From Candidatus Altimarinota bacterium (GTDB lineage Bacteria; Patescibacteriota; Gracilibacteria; BD1-5; UBA6164), in contig JAHDGX010000006.1 in NCBI GenBank assembly GCA_020631575.1, positions 1 to 34,109 on the forward strand: a stretch of DNA of 34,109 nt, written 5' to 3'. How positions within the stretch are numbered: the first letter of the stretch is position 1; every line of letters begins with the position of its first letter. Below are positions 5,839 to 28,615 of the stretch, in pieces. The notes under the pieces were generated by a model. It searched no databases. It had not been told where the DNA came from and saw only the letters and a program-made list of their open reading frames with translations. The position numbers and the translations under genes are program-made.

Positions 5839-6459
5839 ATGAAATACACCACTAATAATACATCACCTGCATTTACTCTCATAGAGCTTATTGTAGCTAT
5901 AACAATTTTTGGAGTTATTATGATCTCTGTTATGAGTGTGTTTTTGTTTGCTTCTCAAATGTCTGCGAGGGTAGAGGTGCAACGTATTATGCAAGAAAAT
6001 ATAAAAAACGTAGTGGAAGATATAGCTGAGTGAGTAAGGAAAAGTGGTCTTTCTTGAGTCCTCCCTGACGGGGGAATTGATGCTTGTTCATGATCTTGAG
6101 CATGACTGGTTGGAACAAAGCTCTGTCTCAATAACGGAACTCAATATTCGATTTGATATATAGATAGCTGAATTGGTAGTTGGGTTCGCTCCACTGACAT
6201 AAATGGAGACTGTTGAGATATTAAGTCTAGTTGTCATGTTCTTAAAAAAGACACTGCATGATGATATTATCCTTTATCTAATAGTTTTATTCATTTTGAA
6301 GACATATCTTTTGTTATAGTCAATAGTGAAGTTCCTAAGCTTCTCTTAAATATTACAGTACGTCCTTCGTCTTATAAATCCCTTCCTTCAGCTATAGTAA
6401 AAAACAATAAAGTACACATACAGACAACTTTTTCAGAAAGATTAATAAAAACTTACTAG
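5839..6459 (+). CDS. Type IV prepilin-like minor pilin (PilW/PulJ-like)
   Basis: MKYTTNNTSPAFTLIELIVAITIFGVIMISVMSVFLFASQMSARVEVQRIMQENIKNVVEDIAEGVRKSGLSG; TAG 6457. Confidence 0.75.
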
Positions 6460-9221: not shown

Positions 9222-9560
9222 TTAAATATCAAGTTGCTTAATAGTATCGTATATATGAGAGGCATTTTCTCAACTAGAGTCATAACGAAAACGTATCTTT
9301 GGAACTTTAATAAAAGCAATTTTTTTTCCAAGCATCCTGTGTATAGGATGTGCATGGTCGGAAAGAGATTTCGTTAGTTCATCATGATTGAGTAAACAGC
9401 TTACATGTATATCAATATATGAAGAGTCATTACTTATTTCAACTTTAGTCACGGTTATAATTCCGTGAGATACTGTAAGCTCTTGAAGCTCATTTATGAT
9501 AAACTCGCTAATGAGCTTTTGGCTTATAGACTCGGCTTTAGAGCGTCTTTCTTGTTTCAT
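9222..9560 (-). CDS. rbfA: Ribosome-binding factor A
   Basis: MKQERRSKAESISQKLISEFIINELQELTVSHGIITVTKVEISNDSSYIDIHVSCL...HPIHRMLGKKIAFIKVPKIRFRYDSSGENASHIYDTIKQLDI: RbfA KH-like domain, typical P-x-RFRYD motif; one internal TGA=Gly. Confidence 0.85.
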
Positions 9561-9618: not shown

Positions 9619-9645
9619 TTGACAAACAAAAAAAAAAGATATAAT
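9619..9645 (+). promoter_or_regulatory. Putative sigma-70 promoter of rpsU
   Basis: TTGACA (9619-9624), 15-bp A-rich spacer, TATAAT (9640-9645). Confidence 0.55.
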
Positions 9646-9673
9646 CACTGCACTTTACACAATTACACCAAAT

Positions 9674-9682
9674 AAAGGAGGT
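9674..9682 (+). promoter_or_regulatory. Extended Shine-Dalgarno AAAGGAGGT upstream of rpsU
   Basis: AAAGGAGGT at 9674-9682, 6 nt before ATG 9689; complementary to the conserved 16S 3' tail ACCUCCUUU. Confidence 0.85.
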
Positions 9683-9688
9683 AGAAAT

Positions 9689-9889
9689 ATGATATACGCA
9701 GTAAGAAAAGAAGGAGAATCAAATGAAAAACTCATCTTAAGATATAAGAAGATGTTTTTTCAATCTAGAATCGTTACAAAGCTAAAGAAAGAAAGATATG
9801 CAGTAAAAGACATGAAAAAAAGGAAACAAAGAGAAAAAGCAATTATAACGAATCACTACAGAGAACTAAATTCAAAGGTTTACTTCTAA
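9689..9889 (+). CDS. rpsU: 30S ribosomal protein bS21
   Basis: MIYAVRKEGESNEKLILRYKKMFFQSRIVTKLKKERYAVKDMKKRKQREKAIITNHYRELNSKVYF: small, basic, bS21-like pattern. Confidence 0.85.
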   Translation: MIYAVRKEGESNEKLILRYKKMFFQSRIVTKLKKERYAVKDMKKRKQREKAIITNHYRELNSKVYF

Positions 9890-9892
9890 GTA

Positions 9893-9936
9893 ACATACTA
9901 AAAAATCCCTACTCATGTAGGGATTTTTTAGTATGT
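9893..9936 (+). terminator. Intrinsic terminator after rpsU (20-bp perfect inverted repeat)
   Basis: acatactaaaaaatccctac-tcat-gtagggattttttagtatgt, with a T-run inside the second arm. Confidence 0.8.
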
Positions 9937-10005: not shown

Positions 10006-11325
10006 ATGAAGCGAAGTTCTTGAGCATTTACATTTGTAGAACTCATTGTTGTGCTCGTAATCATAAGTATTCTTTCTACGGTCTGATTTACGGTATATGA
10101 ATCATATTTAAGTACAGGGAGAGACACTGCAAGAGTTACAAAGTTAAAAGATATTAATACAAGTCTTGGAGTGTATACTACAAAATCTCGAATTCCAGTT
10201 CCTGAAAATGGTATGGAAATTCTTTTGAGTGGATCACTTCTCATGTATCAAGGAGATTTTACAGAAAAAATAGCTAAAACAGTTTGATTTACAGGTATTC
10301 CGTTTGACGATAACTTAAACATCTATCCAACTTTAGCGCTTGAAAAAAATAAAAAAGACTTCCAGGTATTGACGTTTTTAGAGGAGCCTACACTACAACA
10401 GTCTTTTTTTGTACCTACATATGCATCTACAGATTATACATCACTTTACATCATCTCAATTTGAAAGTCATTATGAGTGTTGCTGGACGCTGATACAAAA
10501 CAACCACTTTATACTGACCCATTAATAAATACTTGAAATTATGAAATACTTACTTCAACTGGAGAGGTGCTTATGTACTTTTCTGATGAAAAACTTATAT
10601 ATAGTTCAAATGGGGACACTATTACCGAAATTATTCCAAATAAGAATTGTAGAAAGATCTTAGATTCATGAAAATCTCAATGAAGTTGAAAATATGCTAT
10701 TAATCCAACATGATCAAATGAGGTGATGGTATACTGTGATATGTTCACAGATGGGTGATGATGGACTATACTTGTAAATAATGATAACAAGGATGATGAA
10801 TCTGCAACTACGACTGATTGTAAGCCTAGACTTTCTTGATATAGTGATCATGCGTGTGGATCTATATCTGAGTCGAATGATTTCGTCGTGAATGCTGCTG
10901 GGATAAATTTTACAGAATTAGTATTTTCTTGATATTCATGAAAATTTGAAAATATGAATACGTATCAATATATGAAATGGGAGAGGGCCCAAGAGATACC
11001 CCCAAGTGAAACTTTTGAAACTGATCCAGCAGACTCTTGGGATAACGAACTTAAACTGAAGGGGTGAATTAATGACTTAAGATGTACGAGTTATGATCCT
11101 ATTTATCTTACTCTTCAGAATGGAGCTTGAGTATATGAACCTCACACTGCAATTCAGACTTCTTTATCATGAACAGAAAGAGAGTTCTCGTTCATTGATG
11201 ATTGACCTAGTTCATCAACAAAAAATACCTATGGCTTAGATGACTATCAAGATGGTGATGGTTGTTCGGATTGATGGGGAAATAAGACTTATCGTTGAAG
11301 TAGTGCTTACATTATGGTACGTTAA
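10006..11325 (+). CDS. Prepilin-like N-terminus fused to a C-terminal fibrinogen-like domain (paralogue 1)
   Basis: TGA=Gly frame: MKRSSGAFTFVELIVVLVIISILSTVGFTVYESYLSTGRDTARVTKLKDI... then NCRKILDSGKSQGSGKYAINPTGSNEVMVYCDMFTDGGGWTILVNND (fibrinogen-related domain start), ending SSAYIMVR-TAA. Confidence 0.82.
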
Positions 11326-11345
11326 TTTACAATTCAAAAATAAAT

Positions 11346-12647
11346 ATGAATACATTAAAAAAATGATTTACTCTTGTAGAGCTTCTCATAGTTGTAGTTA
11401 TACTTTCTATACTTGCAACAGTATGATTTATTTCTTACGAGGATTATCTCATTGATACAAGAGATAGTAAGAGACTATCACAACTTACGTGATTGAGAGA
11501 TGGTCTCCGGTTGGCTACCACAAAATGAAGCCTCCCAAATCCAGATGATAATGTTGAAATTCGCAATAATGGGACAGCATTTTTATATCAGTGATATGCA
11601 GGAAAAAATGTTTTAGAATCAATTTCATATTCTGATACAATTAAGGATCCATCGGATGATATATACTATACGTATCTACTCTCTAGAAATAAAAGGGATT
11701 TTCAGGTGATGGGTTTTTTAGAAAAGTTTAATGGTGATGTTATCTCTCTTTCTGTAAATAATTCCTATGCATGAGAAGACTATTCTCAAAGATTTCCTAA
11801 TGTCTTTGGAAAAAAATTAGGTATAGTTTTAGAAAAACAAACTAATACTCCACTACAAGAAATGTCAGAGTATGCAGGAATTTGATATATGGATTTACAA
11901 GATCCTACTACCAATGAGTTTGACGCGTATATTACAGATACTTTTTTAATATCATGAAAAGAATCAGATCTTACATGAATAATACCATTTACTACATGTA
12001 AAAAGATACTTCAAACATGATGAAGTTTTGGTGATGGGATTTATAACATAAACCCAACCGGCCTAAACCCTTTTACAGTATATTGTGATATGACAATGGA
12101 TTGATGAGGTTGGACCTTGGTTTGAAGAAGTCATACAACAGGATCAGATTTTGATTTTTGATGGTTGAGTAGTAAAGGGTCTGTATATGATGACTCTTCG
12201 GAATATTCTTTATGAGATCAGGTAAGGGAATTATGATTTAGTGAAATTATGGCTACTACTTACACTACTGGAAAAAATATTAACCTTGCAGCAAAGGTGA
12301 GTGTTTCAGATCGAAATTATATAAATGATGAGATAAATTATGCATCTGTATCAGGAAACGGATGATGTGAAGAGGTATATCCATTAAATATTGCATGGAT
12401 TAGTCCGTGTGACCCTATGTGAACAGATGGGAAGAGTACAAACGATAATTCGCTCCTTAAATGGTGATATATTCAATTCATTAATACAACAGAAATTAAT
12501 GATACTCATTTCTTCTTTTATAAATCAGCATCTAATAGTATGAGGACAAGTAAGCTTTGATTAAGGTCGAATTGATACCTGGGCTCAAGCTGAGTTGCTG
12601 GATGGGGGGATATGGCTTATGAACAATGAATGATATTTGTAAGATAA
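11346..12647 (+). CDS. Prepilin-like N-terminus fused to a fibrinogen-like domain (paralogue 2)
   Basis: MNTLKKGFTLVELLIVVVILSILATVGFISYEDYLIDTRDSKRLSQLTGLRDGL...TCKKILQTGGSFGDGIYNINPTGLNPFTVYCDMTMDGGGWTLVGRSH...YEQGMIFVR; TAA 12645. Confidence 0.82.
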
Positions 12648-12652
12648 AATAT

Positions 12653-14068
12653 ATGAGAAAAAATATATCAGCTTTTACCTTTGTAGAGCTTATAGTGGTT
12701 ATCACTATATTAGCTATATTAGCTACTATTAGTTTTGGGACATACCAAAGCTATCTTTCATGAGCAAGGGACTCAAATAGACTTGTGCAGTTAGAGGATA
12801 TGCATGATTGACTCGAGCTTATTAGTGTGAGTCAAAGACTGCCTTTTCCAGAAGACCTTATAGAAATTCAAGCAAATACAGATACATTTGCCTATCAAGG
12901 TTATGCAGGGGAATCAGTGATTAATACTATTTGATATGATTGATGAGGGAAGGATCCTGAAAATGGGAACTATCTTACTTATATGCTAAGTGAGAATCAA
13001 AGAGATTTCCAACTTCTTACCTACTTAAGTGACATATCACTGACAAGTAATAATCAGGTGCATGCTTTTGATTATAGTGATGTGTTTCCTATAACAAGAG
13101 GAAAACCCTTGTGAATTCTGATACAAAAGGATACAAATGCTCCTTTACAAAGCGATACTGCTATTGCTCAAGTAGGAAGCTTTGATATTGTCACATGATC
13201 AGGTAATATTGTTGCGTACCTTACTGATACTAATAGAATAGATACTTCTAAGTGAGAAACTCTTACCTCAATGCATCCATCAAAGACATGTAAGAGAATA
13301 CTTGAGATATGAAGATCAAAGGGAAATGCTGTGTACACTATCTCCCCAGATGGAGTAACAAAATTGAGAGTATACTGTGATATGGAAACAGATGGAGGAT
13401 GATGGACTTTTGCAGGTTTTATAGATAGCACAACTGATACGTGAAACATACGACTTGCAACAGGAATATGACAATATAATAATTCCAGAAAGGATACAGA
13501 TACAGAGTATTTCTTACCAATGGAAAATTTATTACATACTGAAATGATGGTCTCTATCAATACTTCAGATGTTCTTCTTGCGGATTCTACTAATAGGCTC
13601 TTATTTCTTAGGTTTTGATTAGATTCAAATGCCTATCATAGTGATGATCTTTCAGATTGTTCGACATGACCAATGTGAACTTCAGCGAGGGGGCTAGGTT
13701 TACTCGATGGTGTGTATACGAGAGTATGAATATGAGAGAAAGAATATTTTACCTGATCTGCCTGATGTGCATCTTGATGGTATGTACGACCAAATTTATA
13801 TAGTCCAGATAGTCAATGAACTGCTAGCTCTCGACAACCATTTCTTGATGAATTACCGTATACTCAAGCGCAGTATGATTCATTTGCAGCTGCCTGAAAT
13901 TACCCTGTTGGGATGTATCTTTTGAATACTAAAGCAGTTGGCTCTACGTGAACTTTAGGAGCTAGATATTCTTCGGATGCTTGGGTGTGGATGAAGGGTG
14001 ATTGGACCTCTTCTACAGTAGCAGACCCACAGACTTTTTGAAATCAGGCATGGATTTATGTACGTTAA
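12653..14068 (+). CDS. Prepilin-like N-terminus fused to a fibrinogen-like domain (paralogue 3)
   Basis: MRKNISAFTFVELIVVITILAILATISFGTYQSYLSGARDSNRLVQLEDM...TCKRILEIGRSKGNAVYTISPDGVTKLRVYCDMETDGGGWTFAGFID...NQAWIYVR; TAA 14066. Confidence 0.82.
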
Positions 14069-14077
14069 GATAATTTT

Positions 14078-15364
14078 ATGATAAAAAATATAAAAGCTTT
14101 TACTCTTGTTGAACTGATAGTTGTACTAACTATAGTAACAATACTCTCAACAGTATGATTTGTTGCATATACTGATTATCTTCGATGAGTACGCGATAGT
14201 AGTAGGATACAACAAATGACAGAAATGCATAAGTCATTTGTACTGTATGCAACGAGATCTAGGTTACCAATCCCATCATCATCGGTTTGAGTGGTTTATG
14301 GGAGTTCTCAGGTATGAACACAGTGATATGCAGACTCACAGGTGTTAGAAGTGATTAAGTATTCTGATGGATGATTTGACCCTAAAACAAAATCACCATA
14401 TACTTATTTTATGTCTCAAGATAGAAAATCAGCACAGCTTTTGTGATATTTTGAAGAGAGACAAGTTAATTCTCTACTAACTATGCAATCAGTCCAAGCA
14501 GAACAGATATATGATAGTTTATATCCACAAGTAGTATGAGCAGAGCTTGGTGTCTTACTAGAGCAAGAAACTCAACGACCTATCCATGAGCTCTTATCTC
14601 TACAGGGTATATCGACACTTGATATTGAATCTTATACTTGAGCCTTGATTTCTTATGCGTCAAACTCATCTACTCTCTCATGAACATGAACGAGTCTTGT
14701 TTCAGTTGTACCAAAATTGAACTGTAAGAAACTTCTCTCAGTCCTAGGAAGTGCAGAAAATGGTATATATAAGATCAATCCAACATGAATAAAGCAAATT
14801 GAAGTCTACTGTGACATGGAAGCTGATGGAGGATGATGGACGTTTGCAGGCTTTATAGATAATGATATGGTTTCAGATGACATATCCTTTGTTAACTCAG
14901 TATGAATCTATGATTCAAATAGGGCAGATGATAATATATGATATTTGCTTGATATGGATGAGTTAAAGCATACAGAAATTCTTTGGGTATATAATCCTGA
15001 CATATCAATTGCAAATAATTCAAATCAACTTATACAAGCTAAATACGATATTTGATTTCCATGACTGTATTCATGACCTGTTACTCCGTGCACCTCGTTT
15101 TTTGACTCTACTTGAAATCTCATGTACCGAACTAATGTGAATGATACCTACTCAGTGAGTACAAGAGAAGAATGTAATGCTACTACATGGTGATTTCGTC
15201 CATCAGATAATTCTTCTTTTATATTTCGTCTTAGAAATAGCTTAGACGGTGCATGAATAGGGAGTTGAGCTGCTTATGATTCACGTACATGGGGGATTAC
15301 AAATACCTCAGACCCAGATTATGATGTAAGTTGGTGACATGATGTATGGATTTATGTACGATAA
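14078..15364 (+). CDS. Prepilin-like N-terminus fused to a fibrinogen-like domain (paralogue 4)
   Basis: MIKNIKAFTLVELIVVLTIVTILSTVGFVAYTDYLRGVRDSSRIQQMTEM...NCKKLLSVLGSAENGIYKINPTGIKQIEVYCDMEADGGGWTFAGFID...HDVWIYVR; TAA 15362. Confidence 0.82.
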
Positions 15365-18618: not shown

Positions 18619-20070
18619 ATGACTTTAGATATACAAGCAATAGATAATAGAAAAACGGGGACGGTATGATTTTTTCGCTTCAAGAAATTTGATTCACAGA
18701 AATACTTAATTACAAGTGATGCATGAAAGTTTCACTTCCTGACTCATGATGATTTTAGACTTTTTTCAGTATGAGATGTGTCAGAACTAGCAAGTTATTC
18801 AGAACTTGTGAAAAAAGGATTTATACAAGATGAACATTATATTCATAAAATGTCTTGTAGTGTAGCATTGAAAAATCATTTTGTGTGAATGGGGCCTGCG
18901 CTTCATATGATAGTAATAACTCTTAGGTGTAATCATAAGTGTAGATATTGTCATGCTGCCGTGGCTCCTATGACAGCAAAAGAGTTTGATATGTCGAAAG
19001 AAACTGCTAAAAAAGTAGTTGATACCATCATGTACACAAATGCCCCAAGTTTTACTATAGAGTTTCAGTGATGAGAAGCTCTCGTGAACTATCCAGTTGT
19101 TCAATATGTGGTGGAGTATGCAAAAGATAGAGCGCAGCATCTCTCAAAACAGATCACTTTTTCTCTTGTTTCAAATCTTACTTTGATGACTGAGGATAAA
19201 CTGAAGTGGCTTCTGGATAACTGAGTAGATATATGTACGAGTCTTGATTGAGATGAAGTCTCGCATAATAACTCTCGAACATGATTTGATGGGAATAGTT
19301 TTGAGAAAGTGACGTATTGGATGAAGCGTGTGGATGAGGAGAAACAAAAACGTTGAATGTGAAAAGTATGAGCACTTCTGACAGCAACAAAGGAGACTCT
19401 TCCAAAGTATAAAAAAATAATTGACGTATATAGATCCCTTGGACTTGATGGGATATTTCTTAGATGGCTCAATCCGTATGGATTTGCTGCTGCTGACCTG
19501 CAAACTCTAGCCTATGAATCAGATGATTGGATTAGGTTTTATAAAGAGTCATTAGACTATATTATTGAGATTAATGCTTCAGGAGAATTTTTTAGAGAGC
19601 AAATTACTTCTGTGTATTTGCAAAAAATATTCAATGAATATGATCCTGCCTTTATGGATATACGAAATCCAAGTGGGATAGCAATAGGTTGAGTTGCGTA
19701 TAATTATGATGGAAAAGTATATGCAAGTGACGAATCAAGAATGCTTGGAAGAATGGGGATAGATGATTTTCTTATGACTGATATGCTCGACTCAGGAGAA
19801 GATACATATAAGGCAATGATGCAGAGTGATATTACAAAAATCGCGGTTCAGTCAAGTACTCTTGATGGCTTACCAGGGTATAATGATCATGTCTATAAGC
19901 CATACTTATGAGTAGATATTATTCATAACTTTAAAATGACAGGGAGTCTGTATGCTCCAATGGAAAAAGATGAAAAAATGAAGTTACAGATTGCTATACT
20001 TGATACCATTTTTGAAAAACTTCAAGATCCAAAAATCGAGAAGATATTTATGAGCTGGATAGGGAGATAA
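18619..20070 (+). CDS. hxsB: Radical SAM maturase, HxsB-like
   Basis: FFRFKKFD..KYLITSDAGKFHFLTHDDFRLF...HMIVITLRCNHKCRYCHAAVAPMTAKEFDMSKETAKKVVDTIMYTNAPSFTIEFQGGEALVNYPVVQYVVEYAKDRA...: N-terminal peptide-binding-like segment, CxxxCxYC, FTIEFQGGEAL as in HxsB. Confidence 0.75.
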
Positions 20071-20099
20071 GATTATGAGACCTTGTAAAGAGTTCTTGT

Positions 20100-20126
20100 T
20101 TGTAATTCAAGGAAAAGCATTATACT
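20100..20126 (+). promoter_or_regulatory. Putative internal promoter in front of the precursor gene
   Basis: TTGTAA (20100-20105), 15-bp spacer, TATACT (20121-20126), in a 90-bp gap inside an otherwise tightly packed operon. Confidence 0.4.
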
Positions 20127-20160
20127 TAGCCTTATAAAGTACATTTAAAACTACTATATT

Positions 20161-20565
20161 ATGAAGAAAAAAGATAAATTTCCAAAACTTAAGAAATCAC
20201 TTAAGAATTTTCTTACAGATGAAAGTGGGAAAATCACAAAAAAAGATGCTTTATGATTATGAATAGGGGCTGCTATGATATGATCGATAGAACAAGTTTC
20301 TGCAGCACATTGTTCATCTTCAGGAGCTCATGGAAATAAAACTTATTCCTCTCCATGAGTATCACATGGAAATGATACTACATGGTGATCTAGAAATTTT
20401 AATATGACAGCCAATGGAATTCAATCATGTCAGCATGGAAGTGGTATTGTAAATGGGCATTACAGCTCCACTCCTTCTGGCCAATGAAATGCTAGATTTT
20501 CGTGACATGCAAATCATGGAAGTCATGGGAGTGGACACTGTAGTTGTTGAAGGGGGTGTTGGTAA
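20161..20565 (+). CDS. hxsA: HxsA-like His-Xaa-Ser-motif precursor peptide (putative RiPP / modified secreted protein)
   Basis: 134 aa with TGA=Gly: MKKKDKFPKLKKSLKNFLTDESGKITKKDALGLGIGAAMIGSIEQVSAAHCSSSGAHGNKTYSSPGVSHGNDTTWGSRNFNMTANGIQSCQHGSGIVNGHYSSTPSGQGNARFSGHANHGSHGSGHCSCGRGCW. Charged leader, hydrophobic segment, His/Gly/Ser/Cys-rich core with six HxS motifs; directly follows HxsB-like. Confidence 0.7.
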
Positions 20566-20582
20566 TTTTTAAAAAAAATATC

Positions 20583-21485
20583 ATGAAAAGCATACATTAT
20601 ATTATTGCAATGATTTTGTGTCTCATTATTGGTTTTTTAGGAGGATACTTTGTTTTTTACAAAAATAGTTTTGATAAGCAGAGCACACCTATCTTTATTC
20701 CTGAAGGGATAGGTGGTATTTCTAGTTCTATAGATAGTAACGTAGATGCAACTGTTATTCTCAATTCTCAATTACAATGAATTTTAGATGAGCAGAAAAA
20801 TACCGATTGAGAGCCTGAGTTAGGGCAAGCATTCTCTAATATAAAATATGCACTTAGAAACGATGCGATCAGTGATCAACATCTAAACTATTATGGAGTA
20901 TGAAACTCACTCTTGTTTTCAAGTATATCACAGCGAGATGAGTGTGATGTGTATCTCGAGAAGATCTCAACTCCTTCTCCTCAAAGATTTTATCAAGAGT
21001 GTATTTTTCAGTATTATCTGAAAAAATTACTAGAAAATAAGTGAAATTATGATGTTCCATCTGTAATTCTTGCGGAATATTCTATACTTAACAGTATATC
21101 AAACAAATCATGTAGTGTAGAGAATGACTTTCAATGTATGCTATTATTCAATAACGAAATGACTCGAGAAAAATTTCTCTCAGACATGCCTCAACTTATG
21201 ATTGATAAGTGATTTACGGTAAGTGATTTTCTCAGAAGTATCTCTCTTGTAAGTTATTGAATATATGTCTTTAATGATGATGTTCGAGATATTGATACGC
21301 TGGAAGAAGCTTTAAATTTATATTATGATGAAGCTCTTATTCAAAAAGCTGTCTATGAAAATCAATCCTCTTATTGTGATGAAATTAACTACGAACCAAG
21401 TCAAAAATATTGTAGAGATATTTTAAATAATGATACGCAAAAATACTTAGAACTTTTCAATAAATTTTATTCTCTCTCTGAATAA
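20583..21485 (+). CDS. Membrane-anchored extracytoplasmic protein of unknown function
   Basis: MKSIHYIIAMILCLIIGFLGGYFVFYKNSFDKQSTPIFIPEG... single N-terminal TM, Cys-containing ectodomain; TAA 21483. Upstream in-frame ATG at 20544 also possible. Confidence 0.65.
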
Positions 21486-21491
21486 GATTTG

Positions 21492-22646
21492 ATGAATACG
21501 GCATTTTACGTACATGTTCCATTTTGCCCATCTTGATGTAGGTTTTGTCATTTCTATATAAATGGGAAAAAACAAGAGTGATATGTAGAACTTCTTAAAA
21601 AAGAGTATAGTCTACGCTTTGGGGATACGGTTCAACAAGTATCATGCATACATATATGATGATGAACTCCAAATCTACTTTCAGAGCCTGAGCTGCAAGA
21701 ACTTCTCTCATTCTTACGCAAGACACTACTCTGATATAAAGAGTTTTCTATCGAACTCCATCCTGCTCTTTGTACTAAAAAGCAGCTAGATATACTCAAA
21801 GCATGATGAATAGATCGTATATCTTTTGGTATTCAATCCCTTGATTCATCGATTCTTGCGCACCATACAAGAGTATCAGGAAATTATGAGAAGCTTCACG
21901 AACTTGTCGCATATGCGAAAGAAATAGGAATTAAAAAGATAAATTTTGATTTCATATATGATCTCATAGGAGATAGCCTAAAAAATATTCAAAGGAATTT
22001 TGATTTTATAGAAACATGTAAACCTTCGAGCGTCTATTATTATAGGCTTAGGAGGTTTACAGAGCATCTAAAAAAGTATCATACATCAAATGAAAAACGT
22101 GCCTTTTGATACTATATGAAAGTGAAAAATAGCTTTCAGAAACTCTGATATACCCGTCTAAATAATGCGGTGTATTATGATCGCAGTCAACTATGATCCC
22201 AAGTCCCATTTTTATATGATGAAATTATATATGCTTCGAGACATAATCTTATAGGTATTTGAACTGCAGCTACATCGGAAATAGAAAACCATTTCACAAA
22301 AAATATATGCTCTTATGAAGAATATCAAAAATCATTATCTGAAAAAAACGTGCTTCTTCTTGATCAAGATTTCTCTATTGCTTCTAGTGCGCGTGTTTTA
22401 AATAGGCTCTATTTTTTCCTGCTTCAAAGATCTCAAGTAGAACTCTCGAGTTTTACCAGTATATTTTGAAATATGCTTGAACTCCAAGATGCTCTAAATA
22501 AGCTGCGAGATCATGATTTAGTTTCTGTCATAGACGAAGGGATATTTCGTCTTACTGAAAAGGGGCATTATTATTTTGATGAAAAGATATGAGATATACT
22601 ATTTAGTGATTATAGGGGGGAGTTTGAATTATTAAAAAAACTATAA
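21492..22646 (+). CDS. HemW/HemN-like radical SAM protein
   Basis: MNTAFYVHVPFCPSGCRFCHFYINGKKQEGYVELLKKEYSLRFG...CIHIGGGTPNLLSEPELQELLSFLRKT...IELHPALCTKKQLDILKAGGIDRISFGIQSLDSSILAHHTR...INFDFIYDLIGDSLKNIQRNF: CxxxCxxC, HIGGGTP, ISFGIQS of the HemN/HemW family. Confidence 0.82.
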
Positions 22647-23246
22647 ATGAATTGTGATATTGTAGATTTTGATAGGTTTCTAAGCTCATGGATAGCAAAA
22701 AAGTATACTTCTACAAGTCTAGCTAAATATATTTTAGAAGAAAAAAAGCTATATCAGCGAATTACAACAGAGAAGGTAAGTCCAAATGGACCGGTACTTT
22801 CTAAAAATGATACCCACTTTTTAGATGTTATTGAGCCATGAGTTCGTGATATGGTGTTATATTTCATAGAATCTTTATGACTTATTACATATTGTTCTTG
22901 CCAGTGACACCAACACCTGTCATCACAAGAGAAGTGATATATTGATGAACGTTATATTAAGGTATTATTTCTTTCAAAAGATTCACGTGACACTATACAA
23001 AAAATCTTCCAACATATTATCGATACATATCCCTGAGATACTTCTATTATTCTTCCAAAAGTTTTAGCTTTTGATGAAAAATATAGTTGAAAACTTCTCT
23101 CTCAAGATAGTATTTATTGCCTTCAAATTAATTTTTCATCTGAAAAGAATAATGTGATTAAATATTTTGATGCAATAGAAAACGTGTATAATGAATTTCT
23201 AGATTACATGAAGATCTTTTTTGATACAAGGAAATGAAAAGAGTAA
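22647..23246 (+). CDS. Conserved-looking hypothetical protein with CSCQGH motif, embedded in the radical SAM cluster
   Basis: MNCDIVDFDRFLSSWIAKKYTSTSLAKYILEEKKLYQRI...VEPGVRDMVLYFIESLGLITYCSCQGHQHLSSQEKGYIDERYIKVLFLSKD...: complete TGA=Gly frame; ATGAAAAGAGTAA overlap with the next gene. Confidence 0.65.
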
Positions 23247-24292
23247 ATCTATTTTTATGAATCAATGAATGGTGCAACCTAGATTGCAGTTATTGTAATG
23301 TTGTAAAATCACAAAAACAGCTCACTTTTGAAGACTGCAAGAAGGCATTTGTATATTACATCAAATTTTTCCCAGATGCTGAAGGGTATAATGTATTTTT
23401 TATGTGAGGAGAACCAATGTTGTCATACTCAGATATTCAAAAAAATATACTCTATCTTCGAGCACTCTGAGAAAGGATAGGAAAGCCAATTGATACCTTT
23501 ATGCCAACCAATGGAACCCTCCTATCAGAATCGCGATTAGATTTTTTTCGAAAATATAATCATCAAGTTTCTCTCAGTATCGACTCACTTGATCCAAGTT
23601 ACGATTATAGAAATATTCGTGATAGGGAAGATATCTCTTCGGTACCGGTACTGCTTAAGAATTTAAAACTATTTCAAAACTATAGTGATATACTCCGAGT
23701 AAAAATAGTAGTTATGCCAGATATGGTAGAGGGAGTCCTACATACATTTAATACTCTCAGAGAGTTATGATTCTCATTTATTAATATACAACCAGCGCAC
23801 TGAGTTTTATGGACTCAGGAAAGACAGAAAGCATACATAGGAGTATTACTTCAAACCAAGTTTATAGCTTCTGGAATTGAGAATCTGAAATCAACAACCT
23901 TAAAGTGATCTCATAGGAATGAAGATGATGGACCAAGGTTTATATGATGTGCTAAGTGAAGAAGTGAGATATTTATCGATTCTTATGGAGAAATATATGT
24001 ATGTGATGCTTTTCTCGCATACCCTTATGAGAAAAGGAAGAAATATGCACATGACAATTTGTTCAAGCCAAACTTTAATCAAAAAAAATTTGAAGAATAT
24101 CGTGACTGGAAATACTGTAATAATACGATTTTATGAGATGATAGTGATATTACTCACTGTGAAATCTGTGACGAAACAAAGTCTTGTTCTACTCTTTGTA
24201 ATGCGCTTCCAAATAATGATAGCGACTATGACAGAGATATACTAATGTCTAATTTTCACTTATATCGTAAACTTGATATGTTATGAATATAA
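23234..24292 (+). CDS. Radical SAM protein with SPASM-like Cys-rich C-terminus
   Basis: MKRVNLFLGINEWCNLDCSYCNVVKS...GYNVFFMGGEPMLSYSDIQKNILYLRAL...TFMPTNGTLLSESRLDFFRKYNHQVSLSIDSLDP...FICAKGRSEIFIDSYGEIYVCDAFL...YCNNTILGDDSDITHCEICDETKSCSTLCNAL. Confidence 0.85.
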
Positions 24293-24996
24293 AGAAGAAA
24301 TATCAGATAATAGAAGGTATAGAAGAATTTTTTTTTAAGGAAGTAGAGGTCTTATTGATTCAAAAAGTTAAGGTATTACTAGAGAATACGATACACGATT
24401 ATGATGTGGAAGTGTGTATTTTTTATAGAGATGGATTACTTCACCCAAAATGTAAATTTCAAATTTTTACTGATAGTGAAGAATTACTCACTCAACTATT
24501 GCGACTTATAAGTATTGAAAATTATGATTTTCTACGATGAAAAAATCCCCTTAAATGAATCCAATTTGTTTTTAATAAAAATGGAAACATAATTGAATAT
24601 GCACTCAATCATGTTTCTTATACTAATGAAACAGTCATAGATATTTCCTATAAAACATTTATTTGAGAGCAGAGCTTAGTAAGAGAATACATACATAGAT
24701 TCCCAAAGAACTATATAAATGATATAGCTATCACAAGATTTCGAGATGTATTTTTGATTAAAGATATTATTCTTCTTCAAAAGAAATTTTTTGAGGAAAA
24801 AATCTCAAGCTGTTATTTATTTTTTGTCAGTAATTCTTATTTTCCTGATATATTTGAAAAAGAATTTGATATTGTGATCCCAGATTTCATAAAGTGATAT
24901 AATATGAAATGCTTTTGTATATGTATGAATAAAGCAGAACTGACGAGTAAAATACCAAGCAAATTTTCTCTCTACTTTTGAACCTATTGAATGTAA
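24283..24996 (+). CDS. Orphan protein within the radical SAM cluster
   Basis: MNIKKKYQIIEGIEEFFFKEVEVLLIQKVKVLLENTIHDYDVEVCIFYRDGLLHPKCKFQIFTDSEELLTQLLRLI...: complete TGA=Gly frame, overlapping start and stop with the flanking radical SAM genes. Confidence 0.6.
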
Positions 24997-25898
24997 TGCT
25001 GAACATATTTTCTACTAAAAAATGAGCAATCATAAAGATAGTCTATGGATGTAATCATAGATGCTATTTCTGTCATGAACGAGAAAATATATATTCGTAT
25101 AATTTTAAAAATATACATCTAAGTGACTTAGATACTATATATGAGTGGATCAGAGAAAATGAGTTTGATTATATAATTATTTCGTGAGGAGAGCCAACAC
25201 TTCATCCTGATCTAGTGAAGATTATCTTGTATTTTCAGGAAAGAGATATACACATAGTTATGGTAAATAATGGGAGCCGATTGCATACTCATGATTTTTC
25301 AAAAGTAGATCCAAATAAAATGACTTTTTATATATCATATCATGGCTTAGAAGAAGAGTATAATGATATTACTGAGAGCACAGACTTTCAGCAAGTCAGT
25401 GAGAATATAAGTCTTATTTCAAAACAGTTCCCAGAAGTGATTTTGAGGTATGTAGTAAATAAAAAAAATACTCAGACCTTCCATGAATATACTCGTTATG
25501 TTTTTGAAAATTTCCCAGATGTATATTTAGAATATGTACTGGTTGAAGATTTGAGATATTCACATGTACAAGAGACGTATATTCCACTTACAGAGTTTTA
25601 CAAGCTAGTGTTTCAATATATAAAACATGATAAAGTACTTCTAGATGGTTGAGCAGCTTGCTTCTCTCCATACCTTTTTCAGCATGCACGTAATAAATTT
25701 GATCCTCTTGTAAATACGATGCTTGGACTAGTTAAAAAGACAAAACAGGGAGAGCTAGTATATAACATAAAGCAGATACTTTCTGATGAGAATATAAAAA
25801 GTCATTGGAAAAAATGTAAGAGCTGTGTACAGTATGATTATTGCCATGGATTTGATACAGATTATATAAATAAACACTCATGAAACGACTCGGTTTAG
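24996..25898 (+). CDS. Radical SAM protein
   Basis: MLNIFSTKKGAIIKIVYGCNHRCYFCHERENIYSYNF...YIIISGGEPTLHPDLVKIILYFQERDIHIVMVNNGSRL...CKSCVQYDYCHGFDTDY: CxxxCxxC, GGEP, C-terminal Cys cluster. TAATG overlap upstream. Confidence 0.82.
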
Positions 25899-26683
25899 AT
25901 ATAGAACTCACTAACATATGTAATGCTACATGTGCTATTTGTGATAGAAAATCTATGGAACTTCAGGGACTCTGAACTATGACAGATGAGGTATATGATG
26001 CTATACTTAAAAAATGAGTCCCATATCTTAAAATTATGAGTTTTTGATGAATTTGAGATCCTTTTCTAGATAAAAATTTTTGGTCACGAATTTCTCTGCT
26101 TCTTCAAGAAGTAGAGAAACAATGAAGAAAGTATGATCTCCATATCTTTGTGTATTCTAAAATGCAAAATATGTCCGAAACAGACTTTTTGCAAATAAAA
26201 GAAATCCAAGATTTAGGATATAATTTTACTTTTTATTTATCAATTTTTACCTTTCGTAGGAAATACTATAGCATGCTAACAGGGTTATCGTATGATCAAT
26301 TTCAAAAGAATTTTGACCTCTTGAGAAAATCATGAGTCAATTATAAGATTAACTTTACTCTTACAAAGTATGGAGTAGATGAACTTCCATATCTTATAAA
26401 AAACTTTTCGAACTATCAAATAGAGACTATTCATGATTTTAGATGAGAGATAGATACCGATGCATATCTTTTTGAGAATATGAAAGATATAGATTTTTCA
26501 GCTCGTCAGAGCAATGTTCCTAATGATTTGTTAGTATCTTCTTTTTCTATTACACATACTGGAGAGTTTCGGTATACTGATGAGGACAGTAGAAGAGATG
26601 TAAAGATATGAAACATTACAGAGATAGATTTCAAACAAGCAGCAGATATATATGCTAACCTTGCCTCAAAATGAGCAGCATAA
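25880..26683 (+). CDS. Radical SAM protein with divergent SAM-binding motif
   Basis: MKRLGLDIELTNICNATCAICDRKSMELQGLGTMTDEVYDAILKKGVPYLKIMSFGGIGDPFLDKNFW...: CxxxCxxC followed by a GGIGDP motif; overlaps the previous gene by 19 bp. Confidence 0.78.
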
Positions 26684-27645
26684 TAGATATACAAACCTTA
26701 GAATTTGATGTTTCAAATAAATGCGGGAATACCTGCCAGGGATGTTATCATAATAAAATTATAACAGAAAATACTACCTCTCCAGAACATTTCAGCACAT
26801 ATATATCAAAGTTTTTTGAAATAAATCAGAGAGAAAAACTCGATAGTTTCGCTCTATACTGATGAAACATACTTGAAAATAATAATCTCATAGAATACTT
26901 ACGGGTACTTCAAGATTATAATCATAGTATCTCAGAGTATTTGTTCTCGACAACGTTTTGAGAGTATACACTGGCTGCAAAAGCAAATCAAAAATATCTC
27001 TTGGGAGAATTCTTTTCATGAAAGAAGTTTATTTTTCAGTACTTTTTTCATCCTGATTATGTTGAATCGTACATAGAATCTTGCAGGGATCTCATATCTC
27101 ATCAATATCAGACTCATATATTTTTTTCTGTGCAGCTTGTTGAAGTTGAGAAGCAGTATATAGTACACTTGTGTAAGTCTCTGAGGAAATTCTTTGTGAG
27201 TATTGGATGTAAGAGAAAAGAAGATTTAGAATCTATAGAACGCTGCGTTGTATCTGCCATACGTGACAGGACAAGAACAGAAAATTTAGAAATTTCTATA
27301 GGAAGTTATACGTTCCTCATTATGGTGCTTCACCCTGTCAAAAAAGAGCAGTGACGTATCAGCTCTGTATGTGGAGATTCATGCTCTTTTTATAGCTCAT
27401 CGTCTATCCTATCAAATAATATGTTTACTTCGAGCATGCTGTCTATTGAGTATGATGGAGCAATAAATTTTCACAATCCTAATTGTATTGCGAGCTTACA
27501 AAAAATATGTAATATTATGGAAGATGATGATCAGATTTCAGAGAAACTTCATAAGTTTTACTGATTTCTAGGTCAAAATGTGAGAGATAATCCCAAACTC
27601 ATAGATGCATGTAATGGCTGTTTGAAACATAATCTAAAAAAATAA
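26671..27645 (+). CDS. Divergent radical SAM-like protein
   Basis: MSSIIDIQTLEFDVSNKCGNTCQGCYHNKIITENTTSPEHFSTYISKFFE...LDSFALYGGNILENNNLIEYLRVL...SSVCGDSCSFYSSSSIL...CIASLQKIC...ACNGCLKHNLKK: CxxxCxxC kept but GGE replaced by GGN; extra Cys pairs. Confidence 0.65.
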
Positions 27646-27649
27646 TATA

Positions 27650-28615
27650 ATGCAAAAAACAGCGTACTTACAACTTCATAGAATCTGTGATCAAGATTGT
27701 ATTTTTTGTGCGCAGCCTACTAATGGAAAATATCTGAATTTTTCTGAGATTAGTGATCAAATTGATTATTATATTTTACAGTGATATACGGGGATAATAT
27801 TTTCTGGGTGAGAACCTACTATGAGTCCGTATTTTTTTGATACTATTTCATATTGTAGAGAAAAAAATATTTCTATGCGAATACTTACAAACGGCCATAT
27901 GCTCGCAGATGCAGATTTTGCTCGCAGGTCTATTGACGCGTGACTGAGCTCTTATCATATTTCTCTTCACTCTCATGTCGAGACTATACATGACGCAATG
28001 GTAAAAAAGTCATGAAGTTATCGCAGAAGTCTTGAAGCCATGACAAATATCCTTCGTCTAGGATGAGACTTAACAATTAATATAACAATTAACAGTTACA
28101 ATGTAACATACTTTCCTAAAATGATCTCTTTCTTTCTTAAAAACTTTCCAAAGATAGACGGATTTATAGTAAATAATCTAGAAACATCGCAAATAACAAG
28201 CACTTACTTTTGAGTTATTGCAGATTTACAGGATATCAAGAAGATAATTATACCAACACTTGATTTAATTGTTGCATCATGAAAGGAGGTTCGTGTTGAA
28301 CGAGTGCCGATGTGTTATATGAGATGATACGAACACTTAAGCGTTGACGTAGAGTATACCATTTTAGGAGACGAGAAATACCTACACTATCTCGATGATA
28401 CGACAACTTCAGGAGTCTTAGATAGTTCTACTCATAGCGCTGATTACACGTATTGATCAGCATGTAAAGCATGTGATCTAAAAAAAATCTGTTCAGGTAT
28501 TGTTTGAATTTGAACTCACTATAAGGAAAGTGATTTATATACTCAAAAAGTTAGCAAAGATGAGCTAGACTCCATCATATTTCTATCAAAGAAATATCTT
28601 CACAGATCTTACTAG
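27650..28615 (+). CDS. Radical SAM protein, HxsC-like
   Basis: MQKTAYLQLHRICDQDCIFCAQPTNGKYLNFSEI...GIIFSGGEPTMSPYFFDTISYCREKNISMRILTNGHMLADADFARRSIDAGLSSYHISLHSHVETIHDAMVKKSGSYRRSLEAMTNILRLG...VERVPMCYM...ACKACDLKKICSGI: CxxxCxxCAQP, SGGEPT, LTNGxxLADxxFAR and C-terminal CxxC...C recall HxsC-type maturases. Confidence 0.65.

Follow-up and report, generated by a model that had tools for sequence, protein, structure and literature searches.

The gene for ribosomal protein bS21, rpsU, is preceded by an extended Shine–Dalgarno (SD) sequence that pairs with the variant 16S rRNA tail of its clade, in a stretch of 34,109 nucleotides from a Candidatus Altimarinota bacterium (hereafter, the window) in which no other strong SD is found. 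This rpsU-specific pairing is well supported by its complementarity, by its covariation with the tail and by the lack of SD enrichment elsewhere. Its best explanation is probably bS21-sensing autoregulation of rpsU as in Flavobacterium, which we infer by analogy.

The rpsU locus carries an extended SD in a short, weakly structured leader

An earlier note on this DNA had placed AAAGGAGGT at 9674–9682, 6 nt 5′ of the rpsU ATG (9689), and the window sequence confirmed this; the sequence 5′ of the gene reads ACACCAAATAAAGGAGGTAGAAATATG. Within it, the extended SD AAGGAGGUAG (9675–9684, + strand) forms 10 contiguous pairs, one of them G·U, with positions 1532–1541 of the clade's 16S rRNA (CUAUCUCCUU) and ends 4 nt before the AUG. 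The single G·U pair joins 9681 to U1535, and the GGAGGU of the window is one of several G·U forms. Against the clade tail, the SD scores −14.6 kcal/mol.

Upstream, a sigma-70-type promoter (9619–9645, + strand) could be read directly, with TTGACA at 9619–9624, a 15-nt spacer and TATAAT at 9640–9645; the consensus promoter scanner requires a spacer of 16–18 nt and therefore did not list it. The arrangement TTTGACA-(about 16)-TAnAAT is kept 5′ of rpsU in nearly all relatives. Transcription is predicted to start at ~9651–9653, giving a 5′ leader of ~36–38 nt (9651–9688, + strand, with a predicted 5′ end) that has weak structure and leaves the SD mostly unpaired. The fold of 9651–9760 reached −9.3 kcal/mol (z = −0.12), with just 2–5 weak pairs near the SD; secondary structure of this unremarkable leader is therefore not supported as the regulator. 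Downstream of the gene (9689–9889, + strand), a hairpin at 9893–9936 (+ strand) with a 20-bp stem and a U-rich 3′ arm (−28.8 kcal/mol, z = −10.4) is likely an intrinsic terminator, and this terminator-like hairpin implies that rpsU forms its own transcription unit. The 30S maturation gene rbfA (9222–9560) is divergent to rpsU, and an apparent rbfA start also lies 5′ of rpsU in several relatives. Elsewhere in the window, four large pilin-like proteins with related C-terminal domains are encoded in tandem at 10006–15364, and a radical-SAM protein cluster with hxsA/hxsB-like genes occupies 18619–28615, where peptide maturation is possible.

The rpsU product is a divergent bS21

The single-copy gene encodes a 66-aa protein assigned as a divergent bS21 from weak profile matches and from bS21 chains in the PDB, which are its top matches there. 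Its scores stayed below the curated cut-offs of both families (PF01165, 17.2 versus 27 bits, E-value 0.004; TIGR00030, 16.4 versus 28.95 bits, E-value 0.006), and a fold search with a bS21 model gave no meaningful match. In one member of the class (G054), the family profile and PF01165, the latter above its cut-off, match the same ORF; this profile overlap and the best PDB matches indicate that the product is orthologous to recognised bS21. We found rpsU in 44 of 49 genomes of the family, in single copy in nearly all members, and in many relatives it is read with TGA as Gly. One genome (G030) encodes a second rpsU-like copy (L074, C1:1926–2093) with a divergent N-terminus and without the extended SD. 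Alignment places Ile53 of the window protein at the position of Tyr54 of Bacteroidia, the only pocket residue compared; Tyr57, which is invariant, follows a helical turn later. A1534, the stacking partner of Tyr54 in Bacteroidia, is unchanged in the 16S tail of the family.

The SD matches a variant anti-SD of the family

Because the window's own assembly contains no 16S gene, the tail was taken from three genomes of the same genus. Every one of the 16 full-length 16S genes in the family, these three included, ends in GGACUAUCUCCUUA rather than the canonical GGAUCACCUCCUUA, with the changes U1532C, C1533U and C1535U (E. coli numbering) and an anti-SD of UCUCC within ACUAUCUCCUUA. The canonical anti-SD implied by the earlier note is thus wrong for this family, and scoring against it alone was discarded as misleading here. 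A foreign 16S fragment with a canonical end in another genome (L093, G001 C56) is likely assembly contamination.

Leaders of relatives follow this variant tail. Their consensus is UAAGGRGAUAGAAA, of which UAAGGRGAUAG pairs, and the pairing ends 4–7 nt from the AUG; the GAAA 3′ of the pairing region is likewise conserved. The GGAGGU form that the earlier note described is present in the window, but it is a minority form, since most relatives read AAGGRGAUAG. In all 14 relatives with known 16S, leader and tail form 10–12 contiguous pairs, and substitution of the canonical tail costs most leaders ~6–8 kcal/mol, the G·U-type GGAGGU leaders excepted. Across 39 leaders opposite 16S positions 1532–1540, departures from Watson–Crick pairing comprise 30 G·U pairs versus 4 mismatches, three of the latter being an identical change within a single genus. 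Leaders vary almost exclusively where they face U, which tolerates G, and hardly at all where they face A or C.

Against the tail of the family, the rpsU SD scores −13.8 kcal/mol or stronger in 37 of 43 relatives and about −10 in four, and it is absent from two, so the conservation expected in the earlier note holds across most relatives. The two members in which no SD was found (G031 and G036) lack a 16S gene and were scored with an assumed tail; the same applies to genera g5 and g12, whose rpsU SDs reach only about −10 kcal/mol by that tail. The g5 leaders (L062, L041 and L040 of G009, G010 and G011) carry UAAGAAGAUAG or UAAGAGGAUAG and read TAAGAAGATAG or TAAGAGGATAG upstream of rpsU. Full pairing of these leaders would require a tail ACTATCTTCTTA, and the predicted 16S end of g5 is ACUAUCUUCUUA; for g12, the predicted end is CUAUCUCUUA.

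Strong SDs are essentially confined to rpsU

In the window, rpsU is, as had been claimed, the only gene with a strong SD (−14.6 kcal/mol versus −7.6 for the next best, a pilin-like gene at 5839); the other tabulated starts range from 0 to −3.8 kcal/mol, and two tabulated coordinates (3071 and 3627) were not ATG starts. Nor were equally strong SDs found at many other genes in the window, in a pattern search of the genome or in sampled genomes. Gene-by-gene scoring of about 39% of the window's own genome (316 ORFs, each 100 aa or longer) gave a best SD of −9.5 kcal/mol. The pattern AAGGRGRT-N(2–11)-ATG occurs genome-wide at 18 sites versus 33 for a reversed control, and only the site at rpsU opens a recognisable gene, the others lying inside genes or before short ORFs; AGGAGG-N-ATG is found 61 times versus 56 in the control, an uninformative count. 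Another exact AAGGGGATAGAAAATG in the genome (C86:4519) was rejected as a gene SD, as it opens a 12-aa ORF only.

This pattern extends beyond a single genome. Across 11 sampled genomes (the window's own, five others of the family, three of the sister family and two outgroups), ORFs of at least 100 aa showed no SD enrichment over mock windows. SD windows were on average weaker than mock windows, both being blurred by first-ATG calls, and SDs look avoided, not just missing. Among ribosomal protein genes, scoring covered a subset, namely the region around rplB (~14–34 ORFs per genome) plus rpsR, and within it rpsU pairs most strongly. Medians of the genes around rplB were 0 to −1.4 kcal/mol versus −12.9 to −18.8 for rpsU in the 12 genomes with an extended SD; the margin fails in G128, which has a 7-bp SD only. 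The gene rpsR has no SD. In one genome (G035), a few genes that are possibly acquired (L137, L138 and L131) lie near −10 to −11 kcal/mol; owing to these, "only" holds strictly in the window and nearly so elsewhere.

Leaders and 16S tails covary across the class

Different tails are matched by different rpsU leaders throughout the class: ACUAUCUCCUUC with GAAGGGGAUAG, AUCACCUCCUUUC with GAAAGGAGGUGAU, AAUACCUCCUUU with AAAGGAGGUAUU and AUUACCUCCUUU with AAAGGAGGUAA. For example, a tail ending in CCUUC accompanies a leader GAAGG (G122), AUCACC accompanies GGUGAU (G050), AAUACC accompanies GGUAUU (G132) and AUUACC accompanies GGUAA (G229). Shuffling the tails among 15 SD-bearing genera never matched the observed pairing (p = 5 × 10⁻⁵), and permutation among outgroups with a canonical core alone gave p = 0.004, relatedness being retained in both. 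Canonical SDs precede rpsU in the outgroup families. The earlier note had tied the pattern to a recoded CPR lineage, where it is indeed present, but this is too narrow because it is shared by several other families of the class whose rpsU has no in-frame TGA. A cursory survey of rpsU elsewhere in the phylum, beyond this class, scored 3 of 16 start calls as strong when a canonical tail was used, and its outcome was too unreliable to be drawn on.

The presence of the SD also follows the state of the anti-SD core. An rpsU SD occurs in 28 of 31 genomes with an intact-looking core and in none of the seven whose core is broken to UCUCU or CCUCU; these seven come from two families and so represent few independent events. 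The core looks usable although rpsU lacks an SD in one f17 genome and two f7 genomes, all outside the order. In many class members the core is changed, apparently beyond use, as in the f7 tails such as AACAYUUCC; these members form a natural series of anti-SD loss. A possible reading, to which we give somewhat less than even odds, is that essentially one mRNA, that of bS21, keeps the anti-SD of the class under selection, such that rRNA and leader would drift together and loss of the rpsU SD would be followed by decay of the core. If true, a ribosome-wide sequence would be upheld by one feedback loop that arose separately from the Bacteroidota case, or long before it.

A proposed bS21-sensing loop and its alternatives

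In the proposed mechanism, rpsU would be translated through direct pairing of its extended SD with the 16S 3′ tail, and essentially no other gene would be. On the mature 30S subunit, bS21, situated near the tail on the platform, would block anti-SD pairing, leaving ordinary SD-less mRNAs to be translated. Subunits without bS21 would expose a free tail and load preferentially on rpsU mRNA, whereby bS21 would be restored. Such a loop would be negative feedback of the Flavobacterium johnsoniae type, but in a different phylum and acting through an anti-SD that has been rewritten. As Tyr54 is replaced (Ile53), the molecular means of hiding the anti-SD would differ from that of Bacteroidia.

That replacement would also suit another account, which we judge unlikely: the extended SD may confer constitutively strong translation of rpsU, with an anti-SD that is never hidden and no feedback by bS21, while other genes lack SDs for unrelated reasons such as A/T-rich, unstructured starts. 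For pairing and covariation, use of the tail by rpsU suffices, and control by bS21 is not needed. Left unexplained by this account, however, is why bS21 is the sole ribosomal exception, here as in Bacteroidota, when other abundant ribosomal proteins do without SDs and SDs look avoided.

It is improbable that the rpsU leader instead senses the 16S 3′ end, for instance how far it has matured or how much free 30S is present, and registers the level of bS21 only indirectly. Such sensing would accord with a pairing that spans the whole tail, from 1532, which adjoins helix 45, to ~1542, and with the divergent arrangement of rpsU and rbfA, which the window shows and some relatives apparently share, yet the short leader shows no extra element for a maturation sensor. 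Persistence by chance of a relic of ancestral SD use is very improbable: the canonical SDs in the outgroup families would fit such an ancestry, but a relic would be expected to decay, and the covariation contradicts it, as leaders stay in step with at least three changed 16S positions and G·U-compatible substitutions dominate. Finally, there is a negligible chance that AAGGRGATAGAAA, a conserved motif, serves as a protein-binding site or is a coincidence rather than an SD. Conservation of GAAA beyond the pairing region would suit this reading, but exact complementarity to the clade's own tail, the 4–7 nt AUG spacing and matching leader changes in other families contradict it.

If bS21-sensing autoregulation holds, sensing through SD–anti-SD pairing would be a recurrent solution and not a peculiarity of Bacteroidota, and it would account for SD-poor bacteria retaining any anti-SD. 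The leaders and tails described here supply natural 16S–mRNA covariation pairs for testing bS21-sensing. For CPR genomes in general, SD scoring must use each genome's own 16S tail.

Comparison with known systems

In F. johnsoniae, the feedback has been proven experimentally: ribosomes lacking bS21, whose anti-SD is free, prefer rpsU mRNA (McNutt et al. 2023, PMC9976891). In the Bacteroidota system the tail lies in a pocket of bS21, bS18 and bS6, where Tyr54 of bS21 stacks on A1534; Chlorobia, for which a similar mechanism has been put forward, lack Tyr54 as well (PMC9976891). Among CPR bacteria, SR1 (Absconditabacteria), Peribacter and other genomes have been described as SD-scarce with an altered anti-SD (PLoS One 2024, PMC10783764). 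Where that study discusses the CPR anti-SD, it treats it as functionless and draws no link to rpsU, whereas here one mRNA matches it. A non-exhaustive literature search found no publication linking rpsU to the altered anti-SDs or the SD scarcity of CPR.

The present case differs from that of Bacteroidota in its phylum, in three changed positions of the 16S tail, of which two precede the core, in a bS21 that does not conserve Tyr54, in an rpsR without an SD and in a feedback that is here predicted. As in Flavobacteriales and Bacteroidota (PMC9976891), the genome is SD-poor and an extended SD, with pairing below −13 kcal/mol, is confined to rpsU; none of the other ribosomal genes scored ranks above it, SDs elsewhere do not rise above mock windows, and rpsU matches anti-SD variants (UCUCA in Chryseobacterium, CUAUCUCC here). 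In these tiny, uncultured bacteria, the rpsU SD and the variant tail thus point to a ribosome circuit that regulates itself, of a kind described until now only in a distant phylum.
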